Of a stretch of DNA of 64,000 nucleotides, positions 11,017 through 12,707 are shown one piece after another. The notes under the pieces were generated by a model that saw only the letters and a program-made list of their open reading frames with translations, did no database searches and was not told the origin of the DNA. Source of the DNA: Komarekiella atlantica HA4396-MV6 (lineage in GTDB: Bacteria; Cyanobacteriota; Cyanobacteriia; Cyanobacteriales; Nostocaceae); assembly GCA_019359395.1 (NCBI GenBank), contig JAHHHK010000007.1, positions 1 to 64,000 of the forward strand, written 5' to 3'. The position numbers and the translations under genes are program-made. Position 1 is the stretch's first letter. The number at the start of each line of letters is the position of its first letter.

Positions 11017-11091
11017 ATGACACTCACAAGCACTGAACATAAATACGTGCAACTCGATGAGCGTGGTATACCCATCATTGCGGGTACAACA
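11017..11091 (+). pseudogene. DUF433 gene, 5' half (interrupted by the IsrB element)
   Basis: Twenty-five codons from ATG 11017 encode the N-terminus of a DUF433 protein (MTLTSTEHKYVQLDE... ending PIIAGTT). The frame then runs into the inserted element and stops at TGA 11149-11151. The rest of the protein resumes at 12483 as MKITEIIEAQMAYGWSPEE. Joined, the halves give a 99-residue DUF433 protein of normal length with no residue lost. DUF433 proteins are small, probably antitoxin-like helix-turn-helix proteins often placed beside PIN-like genes. This half is unlikely to be functional. Confidence 0.85.
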
Positions 11092-11305
11092 GTCAATAAC
11101 CCCACCCCTCTTCAGGGTGGGGCTTGTAAAGAACAAACTTTACGTGTTTGACTAGCTCACTGAGACTAATCCTGATACGCACTTTCAAATACTTCCCCAG
11201 TTTGGATTATCTGCAAGACTGTTTGTTCAGTCGTTGGTTAAAGACAAGACATTTTGGATTAGTTGAGCGAGGGGACTTAAACTTTACTCCAAGGATTATA
11301 TCTTT
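11092..11305 (+). ncRNA. Putative omega RNA region of the IsrB element
   Basis: In IscB and IsrB loci the omega RNA is encoded upstream of the nuclease gene. Its 5' guide comes from the DNA flanking the element's end. Here 214 bp separate the element's left end from isrB. They contain the terminal GC-rich hairpin and further short complementary stretches, with no ORF. The guide would therefore be about the last 16-20 bases of the DUF433 5' half (up to 11091). Exact ends are not determinable by eye, and the scaffold may extend into the isrB reading frame. Confidence 0.5.
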
Positions 11306-12418
11306 ATGCGAGTACCCGTAACTTCAGAAGACAATAAGCCTTTAATGCCAACAAAACCTAGCCGTGCTAGACGTTGGATTAAAGAAGGTAAAGCAATAGG
11401 TAGATTCAACAAACTAGGTATTTTTTATGTTCAATTGACCTCTGTAGCATCTGACAATCAGACTCAAGATGTTGTGATTGGACTTGACCCTGGAAAAATG
11501 TTCTCTGGTGTAGCAGTTCAATCTCAAAAATACACACTACAAATGTTGCACCTAGTCCTTGCATTTAAAACAGTTAAAGACAGAATGGAACAACGGTCTA
11601 TGATGCGGCGCGGAAGACGTGGAAGAAGGATTAACCGTAAATTATCATTTAATAAACGTAGCCATCGTCAAGTTAGATTTGATAATCGTCGTAGCTACAA
11701 GCTACCTCCAAGTATTCAAGCAAATAAAGACTTGGAATACCGAACAATTACTTTATTGTGTGAAATATACCCAGTAAATAAAATTGTTATTGAAGAGGTT
11801 AAAGTGCGTGGCAACAAAAGTTTTAGTCCTGTAATGGTTGGTCAAAAATATCAAATTAACCGATTATCTAAACTGACTAATGTGGAATTAAAAAAGGGTT
11901 GGGAAACATCTAACCTTCGGAAATATTTAGGGCTACATAAAGAAAAGTCTGACAAGTCTTTACAAATACCTGAGACTCACGCAGTAGATGCTGTCACACT
12001 TGCTTGCTCTAAGTTTGTTCAATACAAAACATGGGAAGGTGTTAAAAATCATGGTGCGACATGGGTAGGTGATGTAACTATTACCCATTCACAATTTACA
12101 ATTTTACGTCGTCCTCCAATTAGTCGTAGACAACTACATTTAATGGCTCCATCTAAGGGTGGCAGCAGACGTAAATACGGTGGAACTACAACTAGACATG
12201 GATTTAGAAAAGGCGATTTTGTTGAAGCTACTCAAGGTAAAAAATCATTTTTCGGTTGGGTAAGTGGCGATACCGAAAAGCAAGTTTCAGTTAGCGATTG
12301 TAACTGGAAAAGGTTAGGGCAATGTACGGCTAAAAAAGTCCGATTGATACAGCGAAACACGGGTTTAATCGTGTTGTCAACTCGGAAAATGTTTAATTTA
12401 ATGGCATCGAACCATTAA
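11306..12418 (+). CDS. isrB: IsrB-like OMEGA RuvC nickase (RRXRR protein)
   Basis: A 370-residue basic protein. The N-terminus carries the PLMP motif (KPLMPTKPSRARRW, about residues 12-25) that names the IscB/IsrB PLMP domain. RuvC-I is IGLDPGKMFSGVA (about 58-70, Asp). An arginine-rich bridge follows (MMRRGRRGRRINRK, about 98-111). RuvC-II is IVIEEVKV (about 159-166, Glu), and RuvC-III is ETHAVDAVTLA (about 223-233, His/Asp). Between II and III only about 55 residues occur and no HNH motif is present, so this is IsrB (nickase) rather than IscB. The C-terminal PPISRRQLH...GGTTTRHGFRKGD segment is the conserved target-interacting part. The ATG at 11306 begins MRVPVTSEDNKPLMP, as in relatives. 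It should act as an RNA-guided single-strand cutter; all catalytic residues look intact. Confidence 0.88.
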   Translation: MRVPVTSEDNKPLMPTKPSRARRWIKEGKAIGRFNKLGIFYVQLTSVASDNQTQDVVIGLDPGKMFSGVAVQSQKYTLQMLHLVLAFKTVKDRMEQRSMMRRGRRGRRINRKLSFNKRSHRQVRFDNRRSYKLPPSIQANKDLEYRTITLLCEIYPVNKIVIEEVKVRGNKSFSPVMVGQKYQINRLSKLTNVELKKGWETSNLRKYLGLHKEKSDKSLQIPETHAVDAVTLACSKFVQYKTWEGVKNHGATWVGDVTITHSQFTILRRPPISRRQLHLMAPSKGGSRRKYGGTTTRHGFRKGDFVEATQGKKSFFGWVSGDTEKQVSVSDCNWKRLGQCTAKKVRLIQRNTGLIVLSTRKMFNLMASNH

Positions 12419-12482
12419 ATTAAACGCGCTATCCCTCCCCAGGTTGCTTCGCTGAACCTGGGGTATCTTGCGGAAAAATATA

Positions 12483-12707
12483 ATGAAAATTACTGAAATA
12501 ATTGAGGCTCAAATGGCTTATGGCTGGAGTCCTGAAGAGATTCATTTTCGACATCCTTATCTATCCATGAGCCAGATTCATTCTTTTCTAGCTTACTACT
12601 GGGATTCTAAAGTAGAGGTTAACGCTGATATTGAAAGGAGCTTCGAGTATGCAGAACGGATGAGGAAGCAAGCTACAACCCAACCTTGTATCTTAAAAGA
12701 AGTGTAG
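12483..12707 (+). pseudogene. DUF433 gene, 3' half
   Basis: Seventy-four codons from ATG 12483 encode the C-terminal three quarters of a DUF433 protein, including AQMAYGWSPEEIHFRHPYLS and a helix ending EYAERMRKQ. The upstream quarter lies at 11017-11091, beyond the IsrB element. A TTG at 12468 inside the element could lengthen the frame by five residues. Because an ATG falls at the junction, this half could still be translated as a truncated protein, but it lacks the N-terminal strand-turn of the family. A Uma2 gene follows 24 bp downstream. Confidence 0.8.

Follow-up and report, generated by a model that had tools for sequence, protein, structure and literature searches.

The stretch of DNA analysed here (the window) comprises 64,000 nucleotides, positions 1-64,000 of the forward strand of contig JAHHHK010000007.1 in the Komarekiella atlantica HA4396-MV6 assembly GCA_019359395.1. 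Within it, a DUF433 gene is split by an insert carrying an isrB gene and a putative omega RNA. The features of the locus, with the basis of each in brackets, are as follows.

11017..11091, + strand: 5' part of the DUF433 gene, 25 codons (sequence; uninterrupted homologue at the empty site in genome G004)
11072..11091, + strand: predicted 20-nt guide from the host flank, its length taken by analogy with DtIsrB (IsrB architecture, PMC9581776; empty site)
11092..12482, + strand: whole inserted element, 1391 bp, with a one-base end ambiguity (empty site; starts and ends of relatives)
11092..11305, + strand: putative omega-RNA scaffold, with an Rfam HEARO match at 11092-11282 (Rfam; covariation in a 30-sequence alignment)
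11100..11122, + strand: left-end subterminal hairpin (sequence; helix 2 of the covariation fold)
11306..12418, + strand: isrB gene, 370 aa, with a PLMP motif and no HNH; RuvC residues D61, E163, H225 and D228, TAM-reader residues R336 and Q339 (Pfam, PDB match, residue alignment)
12437..12463, + strand: right-end subterminal hairpin (sequence; comparable hairpin before the end in relatives)
12483..12486, + strand: ATGA, target tetramer and predicted TAM, host DNA (present in the empty site; common to relatives)
12483..12707, + strand: 3' part of the DUF433 gene (Pfam DUF433 just below cut-off; empty site)

Joined directly, the DUF433 parts at 11017-11091 and 12483-12707 form a single reading frame, with no bases lost and no target duplication, as the original prediction had held, and the intact gene that it expected in a related genome was found in a member of the same genus (G004:C22, locus L037), where the uninterrupted ORF encodes 105 aa. 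The joined window flanks align with this empty site at 95.2% identity over 483 nt; the alignment runs unbroken through the junction, exactly at 11091/12483, and its sole gap, of 1 nt, lies elsewhere. Positions 11091 and 12482 are both A, which makes the boundary ambiguous by one base. The predicted 1391-bp insert with a hairpin at each end was recovered in the sequence (11100-11122 and 12437-12463), and no transposase-like ORF, in keeping with the same prediction, was present among the ORFs listed within 11092-12482. The limits of the element are also backed by relatives, which have starts of the form GTCAN or TTCAN and ends lying directly before NTGA. The precise empty site and the common right flank are not due to chance. 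Subterminal hairpins, a fixed target tetramer and the lack of a target duplication, all found here, are hallmarks of the IS200/IS605 family; a further hallmark, a Y1 transposase (TnpA) encoded in the insert, is missing. Judged by its sequence, the insert is an IS200/IS605-type element that lacks its own transposase and carries IsrB with an omega RNA. An AT-rich inverted repeat with 13-bp arms (12392-12424), also seen in close relatives, overlaps the isrB stop and is perhaps a terminator.

The 370-aa ORF matched Pfam RRXRR (E 2e-47), whereas its NCBIfam IscB score of 99.6 lay below the cut-off of 175. The best PDB match was IsrB 8dmb (E 5e-52), colinear over aligned residues 2-354, and this alignment contained no HNH-sized insertion, such as the HNH between RuvC-II and RuvC-III by which IscB is recognised. 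The earlier reading of the gene as isrB-like was thus upheld by alignment. The numbering offset of R336 and Q339 was fixed by hand and checked against the 8dmb alignment, in which positions N265, R100 and R104 carry N, R and R. Across 152 aligned copies, D61, E163, H225 and D228 are kept in 151, 152, 151 and 152, respectively. The protein would accordingly be classed as IsrB, having a predicted split RuvC nuclease and a PLMP motif without HNH.

The HEARO match at 11092-11282 covers the full model from the first base of the element, with 47.5 bits (E 8.5e-8) against a gathering score of 83. None of the 20 relatives scanned reached the gathering score either, so the omega RNA is argued by covariation. 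Thirty omega-RNA regions were aligned, giving 50 pairs, 39 of which show compensatory change. In this fold 95.1% of cells were paired, compared with 73.4% after shuffling and at most 49.7% after sliding by 1 to 3 columns, and the covariation score was 0.592, far outside the shuffled value of 0.183, with the fold favoured in these comparisons since it was derived from the same 30-sequence alignment used to score it. These data point to a HEARO-type omega RNA directly upstream of isrB, with a guide presumably taken from the left flank. The left flank followed directly by ATGA is present in the G004 empty site, in agreement with the earlier proposal that the guide equals the end of the DUF433 5' half and targets the element's own empty site.

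Several other loci retain the RNA region in different surroundings. A Cuspidothrix element of ~450 bp (L046:1013-1462) has both ends and an ATGA flank with most or all of isrB missing, and the omega-RNA start is likewise present, with most or all of isrB missing, at L055, L059, L060, L062 and L074. Because L046 keeps both ends and the ATGA flank, the ends plus the omega RNA can survive, and may be able to move, in the absence of isrB. On a Dolichospermum plasmid (CP070234.1, 1-1407; L262), an annotated reverse transcriptase CDS ends 94 nt before isrB, inside the stretch expected for the omega RNA.

At least 91 of 291 genomes of the order, the own genome included, contain an IsrB match at E 1e-60 or better. 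From part of the matches listed, 163 unique IsrB copies, window included, were collected; ten with unclear or missing right ends were left out and 153 were scored. The right ends of 37 of these, including all four ATGG copies and 8 of the 18 TTGA copies, were set by hand from subfamily context, and a scripted ATGG call at L187 was reset to ATGA. All right ends were fixed before the residue table was printed. The right flanks were ATGA in 130 copies, TTGA in 18, ATGG in 4 and GTGA in 1, the fifth base being free, in a flank search that was not blind, since right ends were assigned from conserved end context. The flank tetramer is host DNA, as it is present in empty sites. Element starts (GTCAA, TTCAA, TTCAC and similar) were called in 109 of 153 copies with a pattern that replaced a stricter first one calling 72 of 153. 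In these 109 relatives both ends lie within ~350 nt of isrB, a span beyond which longer elements would be missed, and there is no room for a transposase in them.

The original prediction took the right-flank ATGA for an NTGA-type TAM and proposed a survey of other copies, and both points gained support: ATGA is in the empty site, the flank is NTGA in 149 of 153 copies, with ATGG in the other 4, and Q339 covaries with the fourth base. DtIsrB has an NTGA TAM, of which R323 and Q326 read bases G3 and A4 (PMC9581776); they correspond to R336 and Q339 of the window protein. Wherever the fourth flank base is A and the residue is readable, the Q326 position holds Q (137 of 137 copies); the 4 copies in which that base is G have R (three) or K (one). 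These ATGG copies (L058, L220, L221 and L222) form two small lineages, and ATGG arose twice on a 151-row tree. The natural pairing of R or K with ATGG has the same direction as the DtIsrB Q326R mutant, which also accepts G (PMC9581776). The ten left-out copies have Q (6), R (2), H (1) or E (1) at this position; one of the two with R (L056) shows an apparent ATGT flank rather than ATGG, which counts against the link, as does the setting of all four ATGG ends by hand, and the other (L261) has no flank assigned. On balance, the covariation between reader residue and fourth base suggests that the right flank is what IsrB reads, and in the window the ATGA flank together with R336 and Q339 corresponds to an NTGA TAM that would be read by the Arg and Gln of the TI domain.

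It is improbable that the window copy is an inactive fossil, moved once by a transposase since lost and now without function. In favour of such a reading, the element is single copy in its own assembly, no matching TnpA end was found there, and the protein has A at the position of DtIsrB N265, where N265A lowers DtIsrB nicking (PMC9581776). However, N occurs there in only 19 of 152 aligned copies, so N265 is not a requirement in the clade; the ORF is full-length with RuvC and TAM-reader residues kept, and the insertion looks recent because the empty site is 95% identical.

The mobilising transposase was sought by similarity of ends. The own genome has four Y1 genes, the tnpA of an IS605-type tnpA/tnpB pair and three others of the Y1 family (C56:190000-193000, L077; C5, L078; C56:341087, L079; C26, L080), and no matching TnpA end was present beside these four. 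Thirty Y1 loci from eight relatives, among the matches listed, gave no convincing match to the ends. Among the matches listed for seven genomes, 30 further Y1 loci included four that have this end type in common but are flanked by ATAA, and no TnpA-carrying element with an ATGA-type end.

Comparison with other genomes made two properties visible that the window by itself does not display: docking at gene starts and an end type common to TnpB elements. ORF starts were called by script, not taken from annotation, and independent counts exclude orthologous insertions, which leaves 150 of 153 copies. In 81 of 152 copies the flank NTG is the start of an ORF of 100 aa or more, as against 293 of 1938 control sites with the same tetramer (p 4e-25). 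Relative to host genes, 95 copies could be placed, namely those whose two ends were called and whose tetramer begins with A, with nearby matched ATGA/ATGG sites as controls; 42 of 95 coincide exactly with the first start codon of an ORF (80 aa or longer), compared with 51 of 1552 controls (p 3e-31). Orthologous insertions were left in the 81/152 and 42/95 counts. The remaining placed copies were near a start (6), inside ORFs (22) or intergenic (25), while the other controls fell near a start (12), inside ORFs (1196) or between genes (293). When start and intergenic sites only are considered, 42 of 67 copies are at a start versus 51 of 344 controls (p 4e-15).

Insertions within ORFs follow the same direction. 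All 27 ORF-internal copies are in sense, compared with 758 of 1275 control sites, and they lie a median of 93 nt from the ORF start as against 403 in controls; under other settings 21 of 22 were in sense, with one unassigned. The window copy, in sense and 75 nt inside its gene, fits this sense-near-start rule and not exact docking. The proportion docked was 5 of 19 among copies at least 75% identical to the window copy, partial ones included, and 1 of 18 in the TTGA clade.

From the 48 proteins docked at or near a start, ten were selected for a Pfam scan, and each gave a match. In eight the domain match starts within the first 28 residues (PheS, DapB, GshB, argininosuccinate synthase, ATP sulfurylase, thioredoxin, an epimerase and an aconitase-C protein, LeuD by eye); in SecF and in a type II/IV secretion ATPase (by eye PilB) it starts at residues 34 and 101, respectively. 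For the gshB copy, empty sites were found in congeners by adjoining match coordinates (G301, G172, G109, G268). The dapB copy also has empty sites in congeners (G109, G274, G301), with the two matches overlapping by 8 nt, and three relatives of the pheS host have both flanks ~0.3 kb apart, which leaves no room for the element. Ends were assigned in two of five annotated plasmid records: in one (H1) the CDS starts exactly at the TAM ATG, and in the other (H2) the annotated start is an out-of-frame ATG 7 nt downstream. At 9 of the 42 start-class sites an open forward frame of at least 60 codons runs up to the left end, so a few of them may be mis-framed. Gene-start docking of IsrB copies, in sense, is new here. 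No report of start-codon docking by IsrB or IscB elements was recognised in the literature searched, mostly papers available without subscription. Weinberg 2009 reportedly may have described ATGA/GTGA insertion sites for HEARO elements.

The simplest source of such a bias would be the transposase alone, since ATGA is a common start context that a TCAT/ATGA-targeting enzyme would hit, and ATGA is the target of 130 of the 153 copies. The matched ATGA/ATGG controls argue against this, only 51 of 1552 being at start codons, and so do TnpB elements that have the end in common with IsrB. One large IsrB group has a right end that matches, over 52 to 59 nt and at 84-95% identity, the end of TnpB elements in which the gene runs opposite to isrB. 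From 54 TnpB loci, 8 without an ATGA end and 6 duplicates were removed, leaving 40 independent ATGA-ending elements; a stricter first pattern, since replaced, had given 11 independent ends and the same direction of result. An ORF of at least 100 aa is opened by 7 of these 40, a background level of docking, versus 75 of 126 independent ATGA-flanked IsrB copies, and by 36 of 53 IsrB copies that have the TnpB-common end type. Within one genus the docked copies number 4 of 20 for TnpB and 8 of 10 for IsrB. Because ATGA TnpB elements with the same end rarely dock, end type and target do not explain docking, and a start-codon bias from the transposase alone, already disfavoured, is very improbable.

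TnpB elements with an IsrB-like end and the target TCAT, the complement of ATGA, were seen at L281, L286, L287, L288 and L293-L342, and others with nearly the same end but a GTCA flank at L273-L277 and L279 (G038). The bases adjoining the hairpin seem to vary along with the target, being TTTCA for ATGA, TTTTA for ATAA and CTTGA for GTCA; pairing between end and target would predict this.

IsrB and TnpB elements with a common end differ in the direction of their cargo and in the side of the guide, which for IsrB lies at the 5' end, outside the element, and for TnpB at the 3' end of the reRNA (PMC8612924). The nearest downstream ORF is in sense for 109 IsrB copies and not for 17, as against 22 and 18 for TnpB copies. 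Since TnpB also runs antisense to the downstream gene, this contrast does not isolate guide position alone.

The same circumstance keeps a second explanation alive, in which docking reflects survival of the host gene: insertion in sense at a start leaves the ORF whole, and translation and transcription signals come from the element's end or the isrB transcript, so that it is chiefly insertions of this kind that the host tolerates. TnpB copies, antisense to the gene, might block host expression, and the docked genes include housekeeping ones, with Pfam domains of PheS, DapB, GshB, argininosuccinate synthase, SecF and ATP sulfurylase. A Shine-Dalgarno-like run of at least 5 nt precedes the ATG in 33 of 130 ATGA copies, as against 72 of 2655 control ATGA sites; counted over distinct ends, 14 of 85 have such a run. 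Copies with the run do not dock more often, however (15 of 33 with it, 53 of 82 without), and supply of a ribosome-binding site was rejected as the main cause of docking: the run is real in some ends and not tied to docking. Intergenic sites should be tolerated too, yet starts are over-represented among start and intergenic sites (42/67 against 51/344), and tolerance by the host gene does not predict that ORF-internal insertions are all in sense (27/27). We consider this account rather unlikely, although of the rivals to the promoter-based reading set out below it stays a live one. Individual ends with AAGGAG or GAGGT a few nucleotides before the flank ATG include L228, L229, L249, L255, L144, L147, L162 and L183, among others.

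The explanation that we prefer, with somewhat better than even confidence, is that of a trans-mobilised IsrB element whose guide comes from the host flank and which persists in sense behind host promoters. A Y1 transposase probably moves the element in trans, recognising the hairpins at its ends and, on one strand, the target TCAT, read as ATGA on the strand of isrB. The omega RNA would take its guide from host DNA just left of the element, and because guide plus ATGA recreates the empty site, the RNP should nick a sister copy that has lost the element. From known IsrB and TnpB behaviour, nicking of the element-free sister copy may favour the element's return. Guide-directed nicking of the non-target strand by the window IsrB is accordingly a prediction, and a retention ('peel-and-paste') role may follow, though such a role is less evident in a nickase than in TnpB or IscB.

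The guide being the 5' end of the RNA and outside the element, an upstream host promoter would have to transcribe it; copies would therefore persist mainly in sense, just downstream of a host promoter. Many would dock exactly at a host start codon, whose ATG lies within the TAM ATGA. The position bias itself is observed in the relatives, and we infer that its cause is the need of IsrB for a host promoter to make the guide. For the window copy, guide, omega RNA and isrB would be produced as a single transcript from the DUF433 promoter.

The window element resembles DtIsrB (8dmb, Desulfovirgula thermocuniculi) in its colinear protein without HNH, in R323/Q326 matching R336/Q339, in the NTGA TAM (PMC9581776) and in a putative omega RNA directly upstream with the guide at its 5' end. 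It differs in a clearly diverged protein in which N265 is replaced by A, and in an omega-RNA scaffold of ~214 nt versus ~262 nt in DtIsrB. Comparable anatomy and the same ATGA target are described for the Microcystis orf2067 IsrB in cyanophage Mic1 gp49, where the segment inserted at ATGA comprises the IsrB gene plus 207 bp on its upstream and 59 bp on its downstream side (PMC11237433). The available part of that account treats one phage-gene insertion as gene transfer, and within that part there is no start-codon docking, TnpB end comparison or family survey (PMC11237433). With IS200/IS605 elements (ISDra2, IS608) the window element has in common subterminal hairpins, a fixed tetramer flank and no target duplication, and the end type of many IsrB relatives is common to TnpB- and TnpA-carrying elements. 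Unlike them, it has no tnpA, and isrB lies opposite to tnpB relative to the common end; its predicted guide is at the 5' end, whereas that of TnpB reRNA is at the 3' end (PMC8612924). IscB (the HEARO ORF) belongs to the same RRXRR family and has a HEARO-type RNA, but the window protein has no HNH and falls below the NCBIfam IscB cut-off.

In its general form, this reading holds that IsrB transposons are start-codon-docking elements, kept by selection in sense between host promoter and gene because their 5' guide can be transcribed only from host DNA. Retention would then be tied to host transcription, unlike that of TnpB, whose 3' guide is made from inside the element. We regard the chances of this generalisation as about even. 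In these cyanobacteria, a number of housekeeping genes stand directly behind an IsrB element, which matters for annotation. IsrB and TnpB elements have an end type and a target in common, which they read from opposite strands, and natural evidence suggests that one residue sets the fourth TAM base, in line with DtIsrB Q326R. The position of the guide, 5' or 3', appears to set where RNA-guided transposons can live in genomes.
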